Shown here piece by piece: positions 756 to 19,152 of a DNA stretch of 24,904 bases. The stretch lies in the IMG/VR virus record IMGVR_UViG_3300025645_000429, positions 1 to 24,904 of that record. The stretch is one strand, 5' to 3'. Source of the DNA: a virus. The translations under genes and the position numbers were made by a program. The notes under the pieces were generated by a model. The model searched no databases, was not told the origin of the DNA, and was given only the letters and a program-made list of their open reading frames with translations. How positions within the stretch are numbered: the first letter of the stretch is position 1; the number at the start of each line of letters is the position of its first letter.

Positions 756-1163
756 TTATGAGAGGGATACTCCTGAGTTATCGTAACCGAACACCCCGTA
801 CTCAATTAATGTGTTTGTTTTTGTACCCACAGCCTCGTAAGTCTTATCAACCGCTACTGGTATAAATGCAAATTCTCCACCACCAATCTTAGCGCAAAGG
901 GCCGTATTGGATTCGGTTTCGTTACGCACGTAGATGTAATTTTCTAGCTCTGGGTCTAAATTGCTAATATATAGATAAGCTCTTTCTAGCTTGTCGTCTG
1001 CTTTATATAGCAAAAGGTCATCCGTATCAGCAGCTGTACCTTTTACTTTCGCTCGTATTAAGCTACCCGAATCCGCCTTAAGGGAAGCATTAACCGCTAT
1101 GTTTAACGGTGATGACAGAACATCGGAGCTGGATAAGGTTAGCGTTGCTTTTACTGTTGCCAT
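756..1163 (-). CDS. Beta-sandwich virion protein, array member 4
   Basis: This 135-aa protein begins MATVKATLTLSSSDVLSS, the same N-terminal signature (MATxxATxxLSSxD) as the next three genes upstream. The middle segment AYLYISNLDPELENYIYVRN corresponds to the KVYIRN strand of the relatives, and GGGEFAFIPV corresponds to their GDWMFIPW strand, so the fold is shared though divergent. Start and preceding stop overlap as TAATG, implying translational coupling. The role is inferred as a minor capsid, decoration or fibre-head protein; no enzymatic motif is present. Confidence 0.7.
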   Translation of the reverse strand: MATVKATLTLSSSDVLSSPLNIAVNASLKADSGSLIRAKVKGTAADTDDLLLYKADDKLERAYLYISNLDPELENYIYVRNETESNTALCAKIGGGEFAFIPVAVDKTYEAVGTKTNTLIEYGVFGYDNSGVSLS

Positions 1164-1894
1164 TATTCGTGTATTAAGAGGGATTCGTAAATCATACCAG
1201 TGTGAACGCTAGGTTCAATAAATATATCGCCTGTGGATCTGGTCCCTGCCGCTCCACTTGTTATTGGCATTGTAAAGTTTGAATCAGCTAAATCTACTAA
1301 CGTGTCTCCTGTTATAGCTGTAGAGCTTGTAACAACACCTTGTGCTTTTGCTATCCTAGCCGTAAAGGTAACAGCCGCACTGCTAACCGTAGTTGTCCAG
1401 TTAGGGTAGAATTGAGCGTTAACCGCAGCGGCAAAATTGTTTAAAATTGCATCAGCGCTAACTGTGGTAACACCATCAAAGTCCCAGCTATCACCTACAG
1501 CAACAGCTCCACTACTAACGGTAGCCGTTACAACAAAGGTTTCTTTAGTTCCTTGCTTAGCGCTCCAAGGCATAAACATCCAGTCATTTGCGTAAAGCTT
1601 ACCTATCACCTCTTGGTCAAGGTATACTGTGAAAAACTCAGAAGCCTCATTTGAAAGGTTTTTAATGTAAACCTTGTTTGCTCCGTCCTGTGTAACTAGG
1701 TCGGCCCTATATAACGGCTCGGCTGTTATTAATGCGGCGCTGGCGGCACTAAGTGTTTTTCTTGTTAGACCGCTTGTGTTAGATAAACCCGACTTCAGGC
1801 CAGCTTGTGAAAGCTCAGTAGAAGCGTTTATTGATAAAGAGCTGCTCGTAAGATCGGTGCTTGATAATGATAATGTTGCTGTTGTTATTGGCAT
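1163..1894 (-). CDS. Beta-sandwich virion protein, array member 3, with inserted domain
   Basis: This 243-aa member of the array begins MPITTATLSLSSTDLTSS and carries the family core KVYIKNLSNEAS (74-85) and IGKLYANDWMFMPW (97-110). Its relatives end about 25 residues after that core. Here an extra segment of roughly 105 residues (about 120-225), rich in Thr/Ser/Val/Ala, intervenes before the family's last strand (MIYESLLIHE, compare MSFEWGLFHE in the next gene). This looks like a domain inserted in the final loop, perhaps surface-exposed. It is 11 nt from its upstream neighbour and overlaps its downstream neighbour by one base. Confidence 0.7.
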   Translation of the reverse strand: MPITTATLSLSSTDLTSSSLSINASTELSQAGLKSGLSNTSGLTRKTLSAASAALITAEPLYRADLVTQDGANKVYIKNLSNEASEFFTVYLDQEVIGKLYANDWMFMPWSAKQGTKETFVVTATVSSGAVAVGDSWDFDGVTTVSADAILNNFAAAVNAQFYPNWTTTVSSAAVTFTARIAKAQGVVTSSTAITGDTLVDLADSNFTMPITSGAAGTRSTGDIFIEPSVHTGMIYESLLIHE

Positions 1895-1905
1895 ATTCTA
1901 TACTA

Positions 1906-2301
1906 TTATCCTTCGTGAAACAATCCCCACTCAAAGCTCATTCCCGCTGCTGATGTTGTTGCTTTAAAGTCCTCGCTCCCTTCTACTGGGATGAACATCC
2001 AGTCCCCAGGAAACAACCTCCCAATAGGCTCGTTGCTTCCAACCTCCATAAGCACATAAGTCTCAGGTGTAGTAGTCGAAGTGTTTTTAACGTAAAGTTT
2101 GTGAGCTTTGTCGTCTGAATAACTTCCGTTTGCAACTAAAGATATATCCGCAGTAGCTGAAGCTTTATAAACCCTTGCTATTCCTGTAAATTGATCTATC
2201 GCTGTGCTTGTACCAGCCTTGTAAAGAACGGTAGAAACAGTAAAAGGAGAACCTCCAGTAAAGTCTGGAGCGCTTAATGTGAATGTTGCTGTAGTTGCCA
2301 T
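1906..2301 (-). CDS. Beta-sandwich virion protein, array member 2
   Basis: This 131-aa protein begins MATTATFTLSAPDFTGG. It shares with the upstream 137-aa protein the blocks DQFTG (about residue 37), HKLYVKNTSTTT and EPIGRLFPGDWMFIPV, so the two are recent tandem paralogs. No signal peptide, cysteine pair or catalytic motif is visible. As part of a late-operon array between the fibre gene and the scaffold gene, it is most likely a structural component such as a capsid decoration or tail/neck fibre subunit. The spacing of 9 nt from its neighbour indicates a single mRNA. Confidence 0.7.
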   Translation of the reverse strand: MATTATFTLSAPDFTGGSPFTVSTVLYKAGTSTAIDQFTGIARVYKASATADISLVANGSYSDDKAHKLYVKNTSTTTPETYVLMEVGSNEPIGRLFPGDWMFIPVEGSEDFKATTSAAGMSFEWGLFHEG

Positions 2302-2310
2302 TGTTTTATA

Positions 2311-2724
2311 TTATGATGCTATAGATTGAGAAATAACAGCAAACTCTACAGTTTGACCAGTCTCGTTTGTAGTAAAATCTATATCTAAAGTTCCCATCCA
2401 AGGGAAGAAGCACCAGTCCCCAGCATACAAACGACCAAGCGGTTCATTTGCAGTTGAGTCTATGTCTACTAAAACATAACAACTTGTACTCGTACTGGCG
2501 TTCCTTATGTAAACCTTGTGAGCTACGGTTGTGTCTACGTAATCCGCGGCGGATATAAGTGTGGCTGCCGATTGTGCGGCTGCGTATTGAACAGTGTTTA
2601 CACCAGTAAATTGATCGAGCCCAGTAGAATCCGACCCCGACTTAGTTAAGGTAGAGGTTGAACTTAACGAAACCTGATCACCAGTTATATCGCTAGATAA
2701 TGATATTGTTGCTGTCGTTGCCAT
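2311..2724 (-). CDS. Beta-sandwich virion protein, array member 1 (first gene of sub-operon)
   Basis: This 137-aa protein begins MATTATISLSSDITGD and holds the family core HKVYIRNASTSTS and EPLGRLYAGDWCFFPW. It is the closest relative of the 131-aa downstream gene. It is the first gene behind a TATATTTGC promoter box only about 20 nt upstream, so the array can be transcribed separately from the upstream structural genes, which would suit proteins needed in many copies. A structural role is inferred; the individual function is unknown. Confidence 0.7.
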   Translation of the reverse strand: MATTATISLSSDITGDQVSLSSTSTLTKSGSDSTGLDQFTGVNTVQYAAAQSAATLISAADYVDTTVAHKVYIRNASTSTSCYVLVDIDSTANEPLGRLYAGDWCFFPWMGTLDIDFTTNETGQTVEFAVISQSIAS

Positions 2725-3112: not shown

Positions 3113-3430
3113 TTATTTCTTTCTACAACGCCATTTACGTAGAGCTAAAGCCTTTCTCGTAGGTTTGCCGTTTGGTTTTTTCATAGGGCCTTTCATTCCG
3201 CTCATTCTAGCACAAAAGGATTTACGCCTCTTAGCTGCTTTAGACCCTGCTTTAACTTTACCCGTTACAGCCATCTTAAGTTTGCTCCCTGGGTTAGCCT
3301 TTCTATAAGAAGCTACACCTTTTGCGTTTAACCCTCCTTCAGGGTTCTTACCTTCTTTGCGCGTCCATGCAGGGGTCTTACCCCCTTTCTTCATGACCTT
3401 ATGGCTACAGCCATTTTTGCAGACTTTCAT
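3113..3430 (-). CDS. Highly basic phage protein, DUF6321-like
   Basis: This 105-aa protein is about 30% Lys/Arg. It begins MKVCKNGCSHKVMKKGGKTP and carries the block AWTRKEGKNPEGGLNAKG followed by SYRKANPGSKLK, which I recognise as typical of the DUF6321 family widespread in marine phages. It has four cysteines, two near each end (C4, C8 and the SFCAR and KWRCRKK segments), and could bind metal or nucleic acid. The start overlaps the upstream stop by 4 nt. Its biochemical role is not known; DNA compaction or a packaged virion role would fit the charge. Confidence 0.75.
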   Translation of the reverse strand: MKVCKNGCSHKVMKKGGKTPAWTRKEGKNPEGGLNAKGVASYRKANPGSKLKMAVTGKVKAGSKAAKRRKSFCARMSGMKGPMKKPNGKPTRKALALRKWRCRKK

Positions 3431-3783
3431 TCAGGATCTGAGGCGTTATCGCTAACCAACTTACGTGCCTCGCTATTCGTTAAGAGGCAATTATTTGGGT
3501 AACTTAATCCATCACCTAGCTCTAGCAGGAGAGATACTTCCCCCGTTATCCAAGAAGCATCTAGCTCCACTAAGAAGTATGCTGTCCCGCTTACGTCTAT
3601 CTCTACTTCCCCCCCGTACTTGTACAGGTTATCCGCTACAACCTCTTTAAAAGTGGTGTCTAGTATCGCTGTCTGTACCCCGTCTTCGTCGTACGTTCTA
3701 CGCGCGTAACTGGCTTTTAAGCCTGCAGGGATATTCCCTTCGTATGTAGCCTTATTCAGGCACATGAATATATTTCCTTTCAT
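3427..3783 (-). CDS. Hypothetical late protein following the fibre gene
   Basis: This 118-aa protein begins MKGNIFMCLNKATYEGN. It is mixed alpha/beta with a beta-rich middle (GEVEIDVSGTAYFLVELDAS) and no signal peptide or recognisable motif. Its start overlaps the stop of the 919-aa fibre gene by one base (TAATG) and its stop overlaps the next start by 4 nt, so it is translated in step with the fibre. Such coupling suggests a fibre chaperone or small tail accessory protein, but this is inference from position only. A start at the internal methionine (residue 7) is possible. Confidence 0.6.
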   Translation of the reverse strand: MKGNIFMCLNKATYEGNIPAGLKASYARRTYDEDGVQTAILDTTFKEVVADNLYKYGGEVEIDVSGTAYFLVELDASWITGEVSLLLELGDGLSYPNNCLLTNSEARKLVSDNASDPE

Positions 3784-6542
3784 TATGAGTGTTTGCTTTT
3801 ACCGACTTTGTAATTGTTTATAATTTCTGCTGCTGTCAAAACTCTGTTGTAAAGCCTTACATCGTTAATTATAGTATCGAGGGGGAAAGTGTTTGAATAA
3901 TTACCTAGTTGGAAAACAGTAAACGAGCTTATATTAACGCCCGTCATAGTGTGCATATGCCAATCCCCATCGGTAATCATCCCTGTAGTAAGCGCAATAT
4001 TATTATCCGCTGTCGACGTAATCGTACCTGTAGAGCTGCTGTTATACCATAGCCCACTCGCCGTAGGAGGATTATACGCGCCTATATAGTCTGTTCCACC
4101 TTCCTCACTAAAAACGACAAATTTAACTGTATTAGTATTCTTAAGCCAAAACTGTATAGTCCCGTTAGTAATATCCGTCAAAGAGCTGTCCGCTACAATC
4201 TCCGCATACCCGATCCCGTCGAGATTTAAACCTTTATTCCTCGTACGAAGCGCATTCCCTACTACGTCGTAACCTGCGTTATAAGGGTTTGCTGTTAAAG
4301 TAGCGTCTTGTGCAAGGAGACCATTAGTCGGGATGTAATTCCCCATTGTATCTCCAATCTCTACTTGCCATCCGAAGAAATCTGTATACTTACTTGTAGC
4401 TCCCGCATATGAAGATAAGTCAAGAGGGGAGAGGTATAAGACGCAGCTACTGCTGGCTCCAAAATCTGTTTTTGCTGTGGCTGTCCAGCTAACCCTATAC
4501 CACCCATTCCCATAATCTTCAGCGGCTGGAGAATACGTTGTGGCCCGAAAAGACTCAGTTGAAAAAGTAAAATATACAGAACTTACGATGCGGTTGGATG
4601 AGGTGACTAATCTTATTTCATCATAGGTACCCTTTTTTACAAAAACAGAAAAAGTATATTCTATCCCACTGTAAGCCACGAATACTGCCGAGCTATAATG
4701 CTGATCATCAGCCGTAGTCTCTGTTAAACGCGTTGCTGTATTTAAAGCGTCTGCGGAATTAATAGCAGGTCCTTCGACTGCACTAGACGTTACGTTAGAA
4801 AGAGTAAGGCTGGATTCGCTAGTAGGAAATAAATTACTCCCTTTACTCCAGTCTTGCATACCGAGCTGCGGGATCGTTGGTTGTGCCGTCACCCACGTAG
4901 CACCTAAAGCCGCCCCGTTATATATAGAGTCGAACGGTGTGACTATCTCGCGGACTGAGATGTTTGTTATAGAACCAACAAAACCGCTTGTGGCAATAAT
5001 TTGGAAATCATCATTGGAGTTATTATCTCCAGCTGTATAAACAGTATACGTATTGTTACCCGTTATTGCAACACTTTGACCCACAGGAGCAAATTTTATC
5101 TGTATGTTTCCCGTAACATAATCAGCAACAGTAAAAACAACTTTAAATCTTGTATTTAAGGGAACAGTATCAAATTGTCTTAAAATCCCGCCTGTACCGT
5201 CATTTGTTGCTTTGTCATTTCCTAATACTTCCCAACCACCACCTGCATTCCAATTACCAACACTTGAAAAATCATTGTTTTCTATAAGCTCCTCACCCAA
5301 GCGTACGGAATTAAAAGCAACCGCTCCACTCCCCTCCGACATCGGTAGATGTACACGTAAGCTGTTTCTTGCTACAGAACCACCAGCGTCTATCAAGAGC
5401 TCGTTCGGGTATGTATAGTCTAAGTAGGCGTCGTTAGCTGTCCAGCAAGAGTCGTAGAACTGAAAGTCTGAGGCCTTTCCTTCTGTTAAATGCGATGAAG
5501 TGTTATATCCCGCCATTATCCTGCGTAACCTCAGGTGGGTATCATCTGGAGTTACAGAATCCATAAAAACACCATCAATGTATAAAGATATATCCGTCCC
5601 ATCCGAGGCAAACACAAATCTTTTATAACCTGTGTAACTTGACGGAGTATCAGTTGTAAAATCATAATAAGTAGAAGAGCTAGATCTAAAGAATATTTTA
5701 TCAGTAGGATTATTTGCAAGCCCTATACTCCTAGCGGTGTCTTTTCCAAACAACCAATCGTAACTATTAGGATTTACATAATCCCCCAACCACATAGCAC
5801 ATGTCCACACCGTCTCATCTAAATCGGCAGGTAACTCTACATAGTCATTCGTCCCGTCGAAGCTCAAGGCTTTCCCAGTAAACAGTTTCGCGTCGTTAGA
5901 TTCCGAGGAGGCGTCAAGCTCGAATTGAGAAATCTCTTTGAGTGAGACGTTCCTAACCTCGTAAAAACCGCCAGCGGAGAGAGCAATATTAGGGTAGAGA
6001 TGAACGAGTACATTGCTAACGCCATTTTCACCATCAGAATCTGGGATATAATTAAAAGTAGTGTTTACTAAAGAAAATTCGCTATTAGTAACTGCGGTTT
6101 GGACATCTGGATGAGGTTGGGCATCGTCTCCATTAGTCGCTTCTATTGAAGCGTTGAAATTTCCGTCAACACTACAACGAACCTCAGCCGTGAATCGATA
6201 GGTTTGGTTCTCGGTCAAAGAGCTGTTGAGGACATCCGAGTATATCCTATTATGCCACGTATTATCTGCTGGCTCAAGAATATCGCATCTAATTCCACCA
6301 GGTATTTTAGTAAACCTCCTAAGACCGCTGTTTTTATTTTCAACCCAATTATTAAACTGTAAGCCACCGCTTAAAAAATCATTGTCTGCTGCAGGTTCGT
6401 TGTCTTCAAAATTAGCATTAGAAAGCCTTTCCCTGCTGATATTATCACTACGACGAAACTTTAACCACAGCTTACGCCCAGCGTTAATTATGCTACGCAT
6501 GGGTTTGCTACCTGGGGACGACGATGTTGATAAGCCTAGCAT
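3783..6542 (-). CDS. Large tail fibre / receptor-binding protein with LamG and carbohydrate-binding-like modules
   Basis: This 919-aa protein appears modular. Residues about 35-205 form a CBM-like jelly roll (LSNANFE... to ...YEVRNVSLKEI). Residues about 205-395 form a LamG/concanavalin-type domain (LSFDGTNDYVELPADLDE; SLYIDGVFMDSV). Residues about 415-535 form a second CBM-like module (LIENNDFSSVGNW... ITNISVREI). Residues about 560-745 form a third (YTFSVFVKKGTYDEIRLV, with GNGWYRVSWTAT). Residues about 750-910 form a second LamG domain ending LYNRVLTAAEIINNYK. Such modules bind glycans, so host recognition is likely. There is no signal peptide, consistent with a virion protein rather than a secreted enzyme, and no catalytic acid pair is evident. 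It follows the exported-protein cluster after a 35-nt gap. Confidence 0.8.
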   Translation of the reverse strand: MLGLSTSSSPGSKPMRSIINAGRKLWLKFRRSDNISRERLSNANFEDNEPAADNDFLSGGLQFNNWVENKNSGLRRFTKIPGGIRCDILEPADNTWHNRIYSDVLNSSLTENQTYRFTAEVRCSVDGNFNASIEATNGDDAQPHPDVQTAVTNSEFSLVNTTFNYIPDSDGENGVSNVLVHLYPNIALSAGGFYEVRNVSLKEISQFELDASSESNDAKLFTGKALSFDGTNDYVELPADLDETVWTCAMWLGDYVNPNSYDWLFGKDTARSIGLANNPTDKIFFRSSSSTYYDFTTDTPSSYTGYKRFVFASDGTDISLYIDGVFMDSVTPDDTHLRLRRIMAGYNTSSHLTEGKASDFQFYDSCWTANDAYLDYTYPNELLIDAGGSVARNSLRVHLPMSEGSGAVAFNSVRLGEELIENNDFSSVGNWNAGGGWEVLGNDKATNDGTGGILRQFDTVPLNTRFKVVFTVADYVTGNIQIKFAPVGQSVAITGNNTYTVYTAGDNNSNDDFQIIATSGFVGSITNISVREIVTPFDSIYNGAALGATWVTAQPTIPQLGMQDWSKGSNLFPTSESSLTLSNVTSSAVEGPAINSADALNTATRLTETTADDQHYSSAVFVAYSGIEYTFSVFVKKGTYDEIRLVTSSNRIVSSVYFTFSTESFRATTYSPAAEDYGNGWYRVSWTATAKTDFGASSSCVLYLSPLDLSSYAGATSKYTDFFGWQVEIGDTMGNYIPTNGLLAQDATLTANPYNAGYDVVGNALRTRNKGLNLDGIGYAEIVADSSLTDITNGTIQFWLKNTNTVKFVVFSEEGGTDYIGAYNPPTASGLWYNSSSTGTITSTADNNIALTTGMITDGDWHMHTMTGVNISSFTVFQLGNYSNTFPLDTIINDVRLYNRVLTAAEIINNYKVGKSKHS

Positions 6543-6577
6543 TATTTGTGTTTATTATTGTTGTGTAAAGATAACAA

Positions 6578-6934
6578 TTAGAACGAACTCATCAGAATCT
6601 CATCCACCGCCTCCTGGATATCATCCTGGGTAGCCTCTAGCTGCATCATTATATTCGCTTGAAACCTTTTTACCTCCTCACCCTCGTTGAATATTATAAT
6701 CGTCGGGACGACAACTATCTTATGCTCCTTCTGCATGGCGGGGGAAAGAACTATATCCACCCTCTTGCCTTCACAATCGCTAAGTTTGTCCATCCAGCTC
6801 ACACTGTTAGAAGCGTTGAAACTCGCGTTAAACTCTACTACGGAAATCCCTTGATCTAATGCAACTGCGGGGGTAGAAACGTATACCGCCGTGGTAAATA
6901 AAAATAGCGTGAAGGTAAGAAGGAAGGTCTTCAT
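6578..6934 (-). CDS. Exported thioredoxin-fold protein lacking the CxxC active site
   Basis: This 118-aa protein has a signal peptide (hydrophobic residues 4-20, likely cut after TPAVA, residue 25). The remainder follows a thioredoxin layout: VVEFNAS (32-38) for the first core strand, KRVDIV for the next, HKIVVVPTIIIF with a cis-Pro-type Pro77, and GEEVKRF closing the sheet. At the place of WCxxC the sequence is FNASNS, and the only cysteine is C54, so dithiol redox chemistry is unlikely. It should act in the periplasm or attached to the envelope. It lies 6 nt downstream of a membrane coiled-coil protein and belongs to the exported cluster. A chaperone, scaffold or inhibitor role is possible. 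Confidence 0.7.
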   Translation of the reverse strand: MKTFLLTFTLFLFTTAVYVSTPAVALDQGISVVEFNASFNASNSVSWMDKLSDCEGKRVDIVLSPAMQKEHKIVVVPTIIIFNEGEEVKRFQANIMMQLEATQDDIQEAVDEILMSSF

Positions 6935-6940
6935 GAGTGA

Positions 6941-7225
6941 TTATTTTAGTTCATCTATTTTTCTTTCGATGTTTTTTAAATCATCTTTTATTTCAAGTAC
7001 ATCTTCTTGCGTAGTCATAATAGTCTGACGTACAAGCTGATCTTTCATATCGAACTCCATGCGTGTAATCTCTGGGTCTGGAGGGATAGGCAGTTCCTTG
7101 GCTAAAGCTATATCTGACTGCAAAGCAAACCACATAGCTATTAATGATCCTAACCCCGCTACACCTATACCTATTGTTTTTAGGTCTAGTGTTACTTTTG
7201 TATCCTCTCCAATCTGCTGCGACAT
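6941..7225 (-). CDS. Single-pass membrane protein with C-terminal coiled coil (lysis candidate)
   Basis: The 94-aa product has a short N-terminus, one hydrophobic segment (about residues 17-36, IGIGVAGLGSLIAMWFAL), a proline-containing linker (PIPPDPE) and a charged heptad-like helix (about 58-94). This layout resembles phage holins, spanin i-subunits and membrane-anchored tail or exclusion proteins, and does not decide between them. It sits 2 nt after the outer-membrane barrel gene and 6 nt before the exported thioredoxin-like gene. That puts it in a run of envelope-directed late genes, which favours a lysis or envelope-remodelling role. Confidence 0.65.
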   Translation of the reverse strand: MSQQIGEDTKVTLDLKTIGIGVAGLGSLIAMWFALQSDIALAKELPIPPDPEITRMEFDMKDQLVRQTIMTTQEDVLEIKDDLKNIERKIDELK

Positions 7226-7227
7226 TT

Positions 7228-8265
7228 TTATAGTATTACGTAGTTAAGTCCAACAGAGAAATCGTGCCATTCCCTGTTCCAATATTTGTTGTATTTTCCC
7301 TCAAGAAATATTCCGAGGCTCTTGTTTAATCTCCAGCCAAAGATAAGGCCTCCAGCGTAATCCACCCACTGCGCCCCGTCCGTTGCTTCGAAATAAGAGT
7401 ATTCGTTGTCAACCCGCAAATGGTAAGGCATTACACCCGCCCAGCTGTGGAACCAGAAGTCCTTAGAATACTTGTAATAGTCGTACCCCACCACCAAAGA
7501 GTGGTTCCATTGGCTCGGAAGCTCAGATCTTTTACGAGAAACGTAGTCATCTAAAACCACAGGTATAACAACCTGCTCCCACACATCGGAACTTTCTGCA
7601 CATATATCGCCATTAGGTTCATAATACACGGAATTCTGGACATCAACTGTATATCCCTCTTGTATAGCCAGGGTAGTATAATGTAAGTTCCCGTTAGAAA
7701 GCATCCACTCCTCCAAAGCATCGTAACCGTAAGGCTCAGATATACGTTGTGCCACCCCTAAGTTAAAGCTAAGGTGATCGTTTACTTTTAGTCTCCCCCT
7801 TTGTGAACCTTCAAAATACTGAACGTCTGCAAACCCGTCCTGCACATATTCTACCTTTGCTATCCAGTTTTTAGCTACGTATCTTAGGAAATGATTTTGA
7901 TCCAGGAAGTTTGTCCCTTGCTGTCTACGCCAGTCCGCCTCGAATAAAAACTCAAAGCCTTTTACTTTACCCACCGTAGCGGCATCGCTATACGATCTTT
8001 CCGTCCCGTTATAGAATGCATTGGCACGGTTCTCATACCCAAATCTAGCTATCTTACGAACCCCAGCCGTAAACGAATAGTCAAACGGGGTCGCAACAAC
8101 ATCTGTTTGGAGACCGCCTGTTACAGAGTATACGTTGTCATCCGCTATGGAGTTCCCACCGCTAAAGGCTGTATAGAACGTAGCGAACTTAAAGGTTTTC
8201 TTTAGGGCTTGTGCGCTTGTGCTAATACACAGCGTAGACAATAGTAAGGCTAATACGTACTTCAT
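7228..8265 (-). CDS. Outer-membrane beta-barrel protein, phage-encoded
   Basis: The 345-aa protein opens with a signal peptide ending STSAQA (residues 1-20). The mature part alternates hydrophobic and polar residues with many Tyr, Trp and Phe, e.g. FEFLFEADWRRQ, HSLVVGYDYYKYS, SLGIFLEGKYNKYW. It ends in a terminal strand with an aromatic/hydrophobic finish (DFSVGLNYVIL), as outer-membrane barrels do for BAM insertion. Its ATG overlaps the stop of the 810-aa T9SS cargo gene by 4 nt (ATGA), so the two are probably translationally coupled. Possible roles are an anchor or partner for that secreted protein, receptor masking, or an outer-membrane lysis factor. It does not show the usual PorP/SprF opening. 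Confidence 0.7.
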   Translation of the reverse strand: MKYVLALLLSTLCISTSAQALKKTFKFATFYTAFSGGNSIADDNVYSVTGGLQTDVVATPFDYSFTAGVRKIARFGYENRANAFYNGTERSYSDAATVGKVKGFEFLFEADWRRQQGTNFLDQNHFLRYVAKNWIAKVEYVQDGFADVQYFEGSQRGRLKVNDHLSFNLGVAQRISEPYGYDALEEWMLSNGNLHYTTLAIQEGYTVDVQNSVYYEPNGDICAESSDVWEQVVIPVVLDDYVSRKRSELPSQWNHSLVVGYDYYKYSKDFWFHSWAGVMPYHLRVDNEYSYFEATDGAQWVDYAGGLIFGWRLNKSLGIFLEGKYNKYWNREWHDFSVGLNYVIL

Positions 8266-10694
8266 ATCTTTACAATCTTCTTATTAATAATCCTACCGTT
8301 ATAGTTTATAACAACCTGATAGACCCCACTAGGAAGCCCGCTCAGGTCAATCCTCTTTTCTTTAGTGCCTGATACTATCAAATGACCTAATGCGTTATAC
8401 ACCTCTGTAAGTACGTCTAGAGAGGTTTGTATGTTAAGTACACTGTTTACTGGATTAGGGTAGACGCTAAGCCCATCATTAACCTGTGAGACCCCCATAG
8501 GCCATCCCTGCTCACAATAACTATATAGATCAACACACGCATCGTCCCAAGCTACCTCACAACAGTACGAGTCTATATCAATAATCCAGGCGTAACACGA
8601 ATCATTTAAGTAGTACGGCTCACCAGGCTCACCAATACATCCCGCATCGTATAAACACAACTCATTATTAGGGGTGTTAGCTAACTCGTTGTAATTCACT
8701 GCAATAGGGTCCGTGCAATCAAGTATTACTTCAATACAACTTTCTATATCCACGTTAGCTTCTGGATCATAATTTAAAGCCAGCTCATCCATACATCCGA
8801 AGACAGCTAACTCGTTACAACTACCGTCGTCAAAGTCAGCCTCATACCCCTGGTTGTAGTATTCTACATAGCCTGGCTGCATACACCCCGCAGAATAATA
8901 GCATTCACTATCATTAGTATTGGCGTCAGCATTGTAGTTCTGAGCCGATTCGTCAGTACAACCATACGTAAATGGCTCACAGTTGTTTCCACAATAAGGT
9001 GCAACGCTGTATGTGTAGGGGAATGGAACCGCATCCCACTGATCAACCTGTAGCAGCGTATCTCCTGTAGGCCCCTCAAGCATAAACCCGCATTGCGCGG
9101 CAGACAACTGAGACTGCGGTGTTGTAAAGAAGTAAAGCCCTATCTCTTCTTCGGAAGAAAGATAGACCTCAAAAGATTGTTCGTCTCCGTCATCAGGACC
9201 CATCTGATACTGAGGTGACACCCAGCCATCTTGATGCACGCCTACCCAACTACCAAACCATCCATCACCTACACCGTCTGTTATCGTAAGCGTATAGAAA
9301 CATGAGTCCACTTGATCCTCGGTGTTGGCTAGTTCGTCGTAGTTAAAGTAATCTTCATCTGTACACCCATAAACCTTCTCGGTTAAACACATAGTAGGTA
9401 TAGAGATTATAGCGTCTGGGTTGTATTCTACATAGTTTTCGTCTGTACATCCGAGCACATCATCTATCTGCTCGCATATTGGTGCGTTGAAACTTTCTGA
9501 TAAACCATAGTTAAAATTAACCATGCTAGGCTCTAATAGAAATAAAGTTTCAGAGCAGGCTGCAACCATTGCTCCACCGTCCTGACCTCCCCATAAAGCT
9601 CCGTTAAGTCCGTCACCGTATGTATCGTTAAGTTCAAATGTTACAGAACTGCCTACTGGTGTGCAAACGTTAGTTGTAATTGGAATGCCTACAGGAGCAT
9701 TAGCATAGTTTCCTACAGGCACTTGGTATATGTATGTACCTAAGCTGTTGTTTATTAAGTTCCAGCTCGTTTCTGCGGGGTAATTGTCTGGGACTATAGT
9801 TACAGAGATTTCAGTAAAGCCAAGTCCACAGTCAGCAGATTCTACAACGTTACATCCTTCGTCAAAGTTAGCCCAGGGATTCCAGTTAGTAGCTTCAGGA
9901 TTTGTACATCCTACTACAGCTCCACACGGCAAGCACGATTCCCAGCAGAACGGGGGTAGCGTAATGTTTCCATCTACGACTAAGGTTCTATTCACATATC
10001 CGTTAGCATCAAATAAAAAGCAAGGGGACTCAGACACACCGACAGGCAACTCTTGTTGTAGCCAGGTATCAGCTGAGAATTTCCACAAGTAAGTACCTTC
10101 GGGTATTATTGCGCTGTATTGCCATTCTCCATCAGTATTATTGTCTGACATAGCCCAGCAGTTACCACACCATCCATTAAACTCACCATTAACCTCAGGT
10201 ATCTCTATTGGTGGATGCGGTCCATTTAGGTCTAATCTAAATGTTACTTCGTATTCACAAACAGGGCTTTCTATTGTTGCTTCAGGATTGAAGTTGTATG
10301 CCTCAGGATCCATACATCCAGCTACAGGCAAAAGGCATTCGTCTAAAGTAAATGCTACAACCGCTTGCACTGAATTGAAGTCATATACATAGTTGCTTAA
10401 TCCGCAATCATTGCTTACTCCAAACCAACCACTACCAAAATCACAGCATATTCCATCACCAAACGAGTCATGTACAACGAGATTATAGAACCCCGCGTCT
10501 AATGGGATAATGTCTTCCTGGTAAACATTAGAGGTATACACAGGGCTAACCGCTACGGTATCCCCATCTGCGTTATATATCTCCCATGATGTTTCACCTG
10601 CGTACTGATCAGGTTGCATTTCCACTTTAACCCAACTGTTTTGAGTAAATACCGTTACTGGTAAAAAGAATAAAAGGAATAATAGTTTCTTCAT
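8262..10694 (-). CDS. Secreted multi-domain protein with T9SS sorting domain and GCxD repeats
   Basis: This 810-aa protein starts with a signal peptide (residues 1-18, ending VFTQ). It then has a module with SFGDGICCDFGSGW (about 20-120), a CBM48/E-set-like domain (about 150-245, EFNGWCGNCW, YLWKFSADTW), a second DNYPAETSW/DTYGDG module (about 295-405) and a third VGDGWFGSW module (about 465-570). Eight disulfide-type repeats of the form GCxDxxxxNYxxxA...C start near residues 127, 262, 415, 443, 578, 603, 633 and 659. A CC-x4-WDDAC motif lies at 711-720. Residues 742-810 form a T9SS type A sorting domain: YPNPVNSVLNI, then YNALGHLIVSG, LPSGVYQVVI and the basic end KKIVKI. The family logic predicts Sec export, then host T9SS secretion to the cell surface. 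It is the first gene of the exported cluster. Confidence 0.85.
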   Translation of the reverse strand: MKKLLFLLFFLPVTVFTQNSWVKVEMQPDQYAGETSWEIYNADGDTVAVSPVYTSNVYQEDIIPLDAGFYNLVVHDSFGDGICCDFGSGWFGVSNDCGLSNYVYDFNSVQAVVAFTLDECLLPVAGCMDPEAYNFNPEATIESPVCEYEVTFRLDLNGPHPPIEIPEVNGEFNGWCGNCWAMSDNNTDGEWQYSAIIPEGTYLWKFSADTWLQQELPVGVSESPCFLFDANGYVNRTLVVDGNITLPPFCWESCLPCGAVVGCTNPEATNWNPWANFDEGCNVVESADCGLGFTEISVTIVPDNYPAETSWNLINNSLGTYIYQVPVGNYANAPVGIPITTNVCTPVGSSVTFELNDTYGDGLNGALWGGQDGGAMVAACSETLFLLEPSMVNFNYGLSESFNAPICEQIDDVLGCTDENYVEYNPDAIISIPTMCLTEKVYGCTDEDYFNYDELANTEDQVDSCFYTLTITDGVGDGWFGSWVGVHQDGWVSPQYQMGPDDGDEQSFEVYLSSEEEIGLYFFTTPQSQLSAAQCGFMLEGPTGDTLLQVDQWDAVPFPYTYSVAPYCGNNCEPFTYGCTDESAQNYNADANTNDSECYYSAGCMQPGYVEYYNQGYEADFDDGSCNELAVFGCMDELALNYDPEANVDIESCIEVILDCTDPIAVNYNELANTPNNELCLYDAGCIGEPGEPYYLNDSCYAWIIDIDSYCCEVAWDDACVDLYSYCEQGWPMGVSQVNDGLSVYPNPVNSVLNIQTSLDVLTEVYNALGHLIVSGTKEKRIDLSGLPSGVYQVVINYNGRIINKKIVKI

Positions 10695-18634: not shown

Positions 18635-18650
18635 CCTTAGCAATGGTCAA
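18631..18650. terminator. Hairpin across convergent gene ends
   Basis: TTGACC and GGTCAA are perfect inverted arms around an 8-nt loop (TTAGCAAT), covering the stop codons of both convergent genes (plus-strand TGA at 18632, minus-strand TAA at 18637). There is no U tract on either side, so an intrinsic terminator is weak; it may pause or protect transcript ends. Confidence 0.35.
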
Positions 18651-19152
18651 AAAACTCACTTACCTCTGTTGGGGAGAGTATTAAGCACTTCGCAAAATCT
18701 CTATACGTAATCGTTACTTCTTCTTTTTGGAGCGCTTCCGCGATTTCTTGGTAGACTCTGTAGTACGCGTGGGTGCTTCTCCCTATAAATCCGTTTTCTT
18801 TGATATTGTTGTTCTCTTGCGTATCGCCCAGTAGTAAACATCCCGCAGTGTCCTCATCAGTATTACCACAATGAATAAGAATATATTTAAAATTTGGGAC
18901 ATCACACACTTCAAGCATCCCCATATGCACATCAGAAAACCTATGGGCGTATTTGGCATCGAAGCCACCCTCTCTTCTAAATCCGAGGCTATATTCCCCT
19001 TCAGGGATACAAGTTTCTCCTGGCACCTTTTTGGCGCGGCTCTCATCTTCGAGAGTATAACATAAAAATTTTCTTTCACGATTGCTTATATCAAATAGTA
19101 TTCCGTTAGTTGAGTCTTTCCCTTTGTTGAACCTTATTACTTCTAGTTTCAT
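18637..19152 (-). CDS. DUF5675 family protein, lysis-associated candidate
   Basis: The 171-aa protein has the family's layout: an N-terminal LDISNRERKFLCYTLED-like strand pair, VPGETCIPEGEYSLGFRREG, then YILIHCGNTDEDTAGCLLLG (89-108), with H94 and C105 placed as in L,D-transpeptidase-like His...Gly-Cys sites. DUF5675 proteins are common in Bacteroidota phages and their position and motif suggest a peptidoglycan-active enzyme, though activity is not established to my knowledge. It has no signal peptide, so it would need a holin or signal-independent release. A start at 19152 fits; an overlapping small frame ends within its first 47 nt. Confidence 0.75.
   Translation of the reverse strand: MKLEVIRFNKGKDSTNGILFDISNRERKFLCYTLEDESRAKKVPGETCIPEGEYSLGFRREGGFDAKYAHRFSDVHMGMLEVCDVPNFKYILIHCGNTDEDTAGCLLLGDTQENNNIKENGFIGRSTHAYYRVYQEIAEALQKEEVTITYRDFAKCLILSPTEVSEFFDHC

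Follow-up and report, generated by a model that had tools for sequence, protein, structure and literature searches.

Asparagines replace the active-site cysteines in a family of viral thioredoxin-fold proteins encoded beside predicted envelope proteins

We identified a family of virus-encoded thioredoxin-fold proteins in which both cysteines of the redox motif are replaced, nearly always by asparagine, and whose gene ends a conserved cassette of genes for predicted envelope proteins. The representative described here is carried by a 24.9-kb virus record (24,904 nucleotides; hereafter called the window, meaning the whole stretch of DNA that was analyzed). We moderately favor the reading that the thioredoxin-like (Trx-like) protein is a nonredox periplasmic adaptor or assembly factor, part of a phage-encoded, envelope-spanning complex with the products of the neighboring genes c2 and c0 and with a role at the host envelope. 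The gene and its main sites in the window are as follows:

6578-6934 (-): redox-dead Trx-fold protein with a hydrophobic N-terminal stretch, 118 amino acids (aa), ATG start
6806-6820 (-): pseudo-active site F39-N40-A41-S42-N43, replacing W-C-x-x-C (N40, 6815-6817; N43, 6806-6808)
6773-6775 (-): C54, the sole cysteine of the window protein
6701-6712 (-): V75-V76-P77-T78, the cis-proline loop

The original prediction, made from the letters of this stretch, described an exported thioredoxin fold with its fold markers intact (VVEFNAS, VVPTIIIF, and GEEVKRF), WCxxC replaced, and one cysteine overall. All three markers lie in this open reading frame (ORF), and the site and the single cysteine are as described. 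Export of the protein is plausible because of its hydrophobic N-terminal stretch, a feature present in 137 of the 138 distinct Trx-like ORFs tested.

Assignment to the thioredoxin fold was supported by profiles and by structure prediction. The window protein alone matched the Pfam Thioredoxin family (PF00085) below the gathering cutoff (E value, 0.0042; 17.5 bits versus 23.5), and it scored far below the cutoff of TIGR01068 (18 bits versus 96.8). All 36 members of our alignment A1 matched Pfam Thioredoxin weakly, with a best E value of 4.2e-5; the cassette member of the record behind locus L280 reached 25.9 bits, above the cutoff, and three others scored 19.2 to 21.3 bits. The profile of the 36-sequence family matched thioredoxins in the PDB at an E value of 1.2e-5. 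In the profile alignment with Staphylococcus aureus thioredoxin 2o89, "vefnasfnaans" falls on the VDFWATWCGTSK stretch, and the N-x-x-N of the window protein occupies the active-site positions. The AlphaFold2 model had a pLDDT of 80.6; two of the five models were near 80 and agreed with each other, and the other three were poor (46 to 49). The confident part follows the order beta-alpha-beta-alpha-beta-beta-alpha. A Foldseek search with the model returned thioredoxins (E value, 8.5e-6), and VIA-align superimposed it on 6kil with a Z score of 11.7 over 92 residues at 2.3 Å. The structural check proposed along with the original prediction thus gave a thioredoxin-like outcome, and the model together with the conserved V-P-T places the protein in the Trx fold class with a cis-proline before strand 3.

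We then counted the residues at the two active-site positions across viral contigs. Scanning with the window protein alone yielded 52 loci, every one of which had asparagine at both positions. Further scans were seeded by the family profile, by distant members, and by the neighbor c0; at most the best 80 loci were used per scan (for the family profile, the best 80 of 381 confirmed matches). Among the resulting 231 distinct relatives, none had cysteine at either position, so that the C-x-x-C of a redox thioredoxin was absent throughout, and 224 had N-x-x-N. The first position was N in 230 and S in 1; the second was N in 224, A in 3, H in 3, and T in 1. The family form of the site is F/W-N-x-x-N. 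One exception, L275, which has S at the first and T at the second position (S-x-x-T-like), was kept in the count, from which we omitted a truncated sequence (L340) and a canonical thioredoxin that is not the cassette gene (from L280). It is important to note that distinct sequences are not distinct viruses, as several loci overlap on one contig.

Because scans seeded by the Trx-like protein can favor their own motif, loci from the c0-seeded scans were counted separately. Selection in these scans did not involve the Trx motif, and some of their contigs were shared with the Trx-seeded scans. The Trx gene was found in 157 of 160 such loci; the remaining 3 stop within 45 bases of the c0 match. Of the 146 distinct Trx sequences, 144 had N-x-x-N. 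In L354, the Trx gene is present as an open frame that overlaps c0.

Conservation extended beyond the two asparagines. Among the 139 distinct sequences gathered first, there was no variation at F-N-A, the first N, I75, or V-P-T (profile numbering); V-P-T was thus present in 139 of 139, and one cassette sequence in the larger set has V-A-T. At the final position, 227 of the 231 relatives have Phe and the remaining four have gaps. The median dN/dS was 0.13 over the 279 pairs with usable dS (5,567 of 6,555 pairs were saturated at silent sites), indicating purifying selection. Columns of the putative groove were less variable than the rest (mean entropy, 0.83 versus 1.42 bits), with columns chosen by hand and buried and exposed positions pooled. 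The suggestion that retention of the fold with loss of the dithiol reflects selection for binding is supported by this pattern: the sampled family keeps the fold under purifying selection and lacks the dithiol throughout, as such selection would predict. The alignment of homologs, which had been named as the way to decide between a conserved replacement and a decayed copy, came down on the side of conservation. Further, the 123-kb record behind L280 encodes a canonical thioredoxin with WCGPC (L280, 75-416 [-]) in addition to its cassette member. The two genes are about 4 kb apart on opposite strands, and the canonical protein shows no clear export segment. Their presence in one record argues against the cassette protein being a damaged form of the enzyme.

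The Trx gene is the last of four closely spaced genes in the window. The other three are as follows:

8262-10694 (-): c4, 810 aa, hydrophobic N terminus and a C-terminal type IX secretion (T9SS) sorting domain
7228-8265 (-): c2, 345 aa, hydrophobic N terminus, predicted outer-membrane beta-barrel with 12 long strands
6941-7225 (-): c0, 94 aa, N-terminal hydrophobic stretch resembling a transmembrane segment and a charged, coiled-coil-like tail (judged by eye)

The c4 and c2 genes share 4 bases, and gaps of 2 and 6 bases separate c2 from c0 and c0 from the Trx gene. The sorting domain of c4 is of T9SS type A (54.5 bits versus a cutoff of 23); all 10 c4 relatives matched a T9SS sorting domain, 5 of them above the Pfam cutoff. 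For c2, the predicted model (medium confidence; pLDDT, 68.8) is a transmembrane barrel that most resembles the EstA translocator (Z score, 15.7) and the KdgM (Z score, 15.6) and NanC porins. The window copy of c2 matched no Pfam family, and 23 c2 members share none beyond weak matches. We considered a PorP/SprF identity for c2, but PorP_SprF was absent from the 7 Pfam families matched by any of the 23 members at E values up to 5. Neither c2 nor c0 had sequence relatives in the PDB up to an E value of 1. The tail of c0 contains a conserved RMEFDMKD motif; in L189, a second c0-like gene (1983-2306) lies directly upstream of c0.

Gene clustering gave the order c4-c2-c0-Trx in the window and in most of the 52 loci. 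c0 precedes the Trx gene in 225 of 226 testable distinct loci (the one without it is L182). c2 was present in 171 of 178 distinct loci, in 164 of them upstream within 4.5 kb; it lies farther downstream in L198, L201, L202, and L206 and somewhere within the locus in L204, and seven loci had no c2 match (L289, L280, L190, L339, L293, L250, and L264). A T9SS-tailed ORF occurs in 138 of 178 distinct loci; in another count, it is missing from 12 of 108 loci that keep c2 and c0. Since some loci lack the T9SS tail, we regard c2-c0-Trx as the core of the cassette. No fusions among Trx, c0, and c2 were found.

Within the window, genes for terminase, portal, and a head-joining-like protein precede the cassette, which lies among packaging and structural genes. 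Other features of the window are as follows:

756-2724 (-): four tandem genes of 131 to 243 aa forming one cluster (c1), possibly decoration proteins
3113-3430: 105-aa basic protein with matches to phrog_4689 and to the C termini of several longer PHROG families
3783-6542: fiber-like protein of 919 aa that contains two Laminin_G_3 stretches; its gene comes immediately downstream of the Trx gene
18637-19152: DUF5675 protein (phrog_1501), whose gene cluster is near the cassette in some other phages

The neighbors of the cassette differ among other phages: it can be close to holin and primase genes, to DUF5675, or to other T9SS proteins, and further settings occur as well. When context labels were placed on a quick c2 tree of 77 loci, we counted 15 changes (the least possible is 5), compared with a mean of 41.6 changes when labels were shuffled, and none of 200 shuffles was as low as observed. 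These labels rest on flanks of about 4 to 5 kb; 21 of the 77 are "other," and 25 of the 71 inner branches of the tree are open. Context is thus clustered on the c2 tree, so part of the cassette linkage is common descent. The surroundings are largely inherited, yet they have changed repeatedly while the cassette stayed together. Several individual loci had further features. In L022, the opposite strand beside the cassette (6366-9055) encodes a CHU_C (T9SS) protein and a Peptidase_M43 metalloprotease. In L039, a possible lipoprotein with a lipobox-like LGSC (6377-6937) lies between the Trx and holin genes. Two different cassettes (L035 and L049) are located at both ends of the 59.7-kb contig IMGVR_UViG_3300030330_003594, representing either two copies per genome or a chimeric assembly.

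The terminase and portal of the window match PHROG families. Among 93 records matched by the terminase, the nearest was an uncultured podovirus (49.8% identity); Flavobacterium phages had 42.6% identity, and Cellulophaga phages were also included. Based on these relatives, the host of the window virus is most likely a member of the Bacteroidota. The family is carried by many uncultured viruses whose hosts are probably marine Bacteroidota.

Phages are known to use the thioredoxin fold for binding, in T7 DNA polymerase and in filamentous phage assembly, and in both cases the thioredoxin is the cytoplasmic C-x-x-C protein of the host. The protein described here is instead encoded by the virus, probably exported, and without the dithiol. 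It has the fold, the cis-proline loop, and the position of the pseudo-active-site loop in common with thioredoxins (PF00085/TIGR01068) but differs from them in lacking cysteine at both sites, in its hydrophobic N terminus, and in its place within a phage envelope cassette. The original prediction had drawn a comparison with T7 polymerase; the use of the fold for binding fits our results, but we found no link to a polymerase. It had recognized neither the viral origin of the window nor the cassette. Because the Trx gene ends a conserved cassette of envelope proteins, periplasmic Trx-fold assembly factors such as TraF of the F plasmid are the better analogue. The available text of PMC7555446 describes TraF as Trx-like, periplasmic, and lacking C-x-x-C, in the service of an envelope-spanning machine associated with the outer membrane. 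The cassette protein is likewise Trx-like and without C-x-x-C, and gene linkage suggests a putative envelope machine for it; TraF, at 26 kDa, is the bigger protein and carries an extra domain at its N terminus. Against the TrbC_Ftype profile, the window protein scored below the cutoff (13.5 versus 24.2 bits), and 21 of the 36 A1 members matched weakly below it (best E value, 0.0089). No conjugation genes were found among the genes scanned.

The low variability of the groove, the tight linkage to envelope proteins, and the precedent of TraF support a mechanism in which binding occurs in the groove. The Trx-fold protein would have lost dithiol chemistry for good while retaining the peptide-binding groove formed by the N-x-x-N loop, the cis-proline loop, and the QAN loop. 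With Asn instead of Cys, this groove may hold a stretch of partner protein in extended form; c0 and c2 are the likeliest partners. From the periplasm, the protein would help to assemble or bridge an envelope complex containing the barrel c2 and the membrane-anchored c0, to which many phages would add c4 as a T9SS-exported surface protein. Linkage in a cassette is not by itself proof of a complex. Since its neighbors in the window are packaging and structural genes, the cassette is likely to be expressed late and to target the host envelope. More tentatively, and with less confidence than in the adaptor role itself, we suggest that the barrel, the membrane-anchored coiled coil, and the redox-dead Trx adaptor could be one new envelope-spanning apparatus, carried as a unit by diverse marine Bacteroidota viruses; an example would be a three-part device for disrupting the outer membrane, with an optional T9SS-displayed arm. 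As to purpose, our two best guesses are egress or lysis, on the one hand, and exclusion or a change of the host surface, on the other, and the cassette most likely would serve either to release the phage or to close the cell to further infection.

If the cassette is a lysis or egress module, c0 would be a spanin-like inner-membrane anchor, c2 its outer-membrane partner, and the Trx-like protein a periplasmic link that couples or times disruption of the outer membrane. This is possible, though we would not expect it. Inner-membrane spanins have one membrane segment and a coiled-coil tail, and c0 resembles them in its single N-terminal hydrophobic stretch followed by a coiled-coil-like tail. The cassette also lies near a holin or a DUF5675 gene in some loci; a holin was found in 29 of the 143 loci with enough flank, for instance, near the cassette in L013 (phrog_3427; E value, 1.2e-21). 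However, no holin was matched in the other 114 of these loci or in the window. Moreover, the conserved partner would be a predicted barrel rather than an outer-membrane lipoprotein as in two-component spanins, and the Trx-fold protein would be extra. We know of no precedent for a barrel as a spanin partner.

Superinfection exclusion or surface remodeling, in which the barrel and the T9SS protein would cover or alter the host surface while c0 and the Trx-like protein hold the complex, seems to us a rather doubtful alternative. It draws on the T9SS-tailed gene of 138 of the 178 loci and on the additional CHU_C (T9SS) proteins that some loci encode next to the cassette, one of them adjoining the metalloprotease gene. 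Phage-encoded T9SS cargo has already been published: the available text of PMC7468147 and PMC6949934 describes sorting domains on phage proteins (Cryophage and crAss-BACON), some encoded upstream of head genes. The 12 loci that keep c2-c0-Trx without the T9SS tail speak against exclusion, as does the position of the window genes among packaging and structural genes.

It is unlikely that the proteins are virion components, incorporated into the particle and delivered to the envelope upon infection. In favor of this, the cassette is near portal or head genes in 28 of 77 classified loci, as it is in the window. Against it, the hydrophobic N termini of c4, c2, and the Trx-like protein, together with the T9SS domain of c4, imply export from the cell, and other phages have the cassette close to replication genes.

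Redox chemistry might instead be performed by a cysteine pair outside C-x-x-C, formed by C54 and a second cysteine on strand 1, where the window protein has Ser31. The C54 position is Cys in 202 of the 231 relatives, and the strand 1 cysteine is present in 105. It occurs only together with the C54-position cysteine (both, 105; C54 only, 97; neither, 29; strand 1 only, 0), and this pairing suggests a structural disulfide in members having both, which would explain it without redox chemistry. With 29 of 231 relatives lacking both cysteines, 12 of 226 having none in the region counted, and the window protein having one, the family as a whole appears not to depend on thiol chemistry, and we consider this alternative very improbable. 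Drift of a decayed enzyme after loss of function, to which the missing C-x-x-C might point, is contradicted by the conservation of the site (asparagine first in 230 of 231), by the median dN/dS of 0.13, and by a cassette that has been kept together.

The adaptor reading concerns a family that is frequent among uncultured viruses and for which we know of no assigned function; c0 alone gave at least 591 matches in one scan of them. The cassette was not found in 50,697 annotated phage records queried with Trx, c2, and c0. The c2 and c0 queries had no match there, and the Trx query hit 81 records, in none of which the match reached 80% of the query length; among the matches listed (30 of 81), 31 to 36% of the query was covered, the best E value was 5e-3, and 29 were annotated as thioredoxin, with one unannotated. 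In cellular genomes, a pattern scan that reaches close relatives only gave one close relative among 74 pattern matches, on a 3.8-kb contig binned with a Nitrosopelagicus MAG, which we take for a stray viral contig. BFVD contains unnamed viral proteins with the same fold, the nearest at 39% identity, so family members probably exist unannotated in public data.

We recognized no paper describing the Trx-like gene or the cassette in a literature search whose reach excluded most subscription journals and all preprints. The main text of PMC7468147 and PMC6949934 does not contain the word thioredoxin, and the c2-c0-Trx cassette does not appear in the available text of either. Trx folds without cysteines are common (22% of 4,082 sequences had no Cys motif or were unclassifiable, according to the available text of PMC2757866). 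Cysteine-less Trx folds and phage T9SS cargo are therefore known already, whereas the N-x-x-N viral family and its cassette are unrecognized in the literature searched. A new phage system may lie behind the N-x-x-N family.

To our knowledge, the lysis and exclusion genes of Bacteroidota phages are poorly known. An envelope machine, if that is what the cassette encodes, would reveal how these phages deal with the outer membrane. The family also provides more than 200 distinct natural Trx-fold sequences without the active-site cysteines, which makes it useful for telling the binding role of the fold apart from its chemistry.
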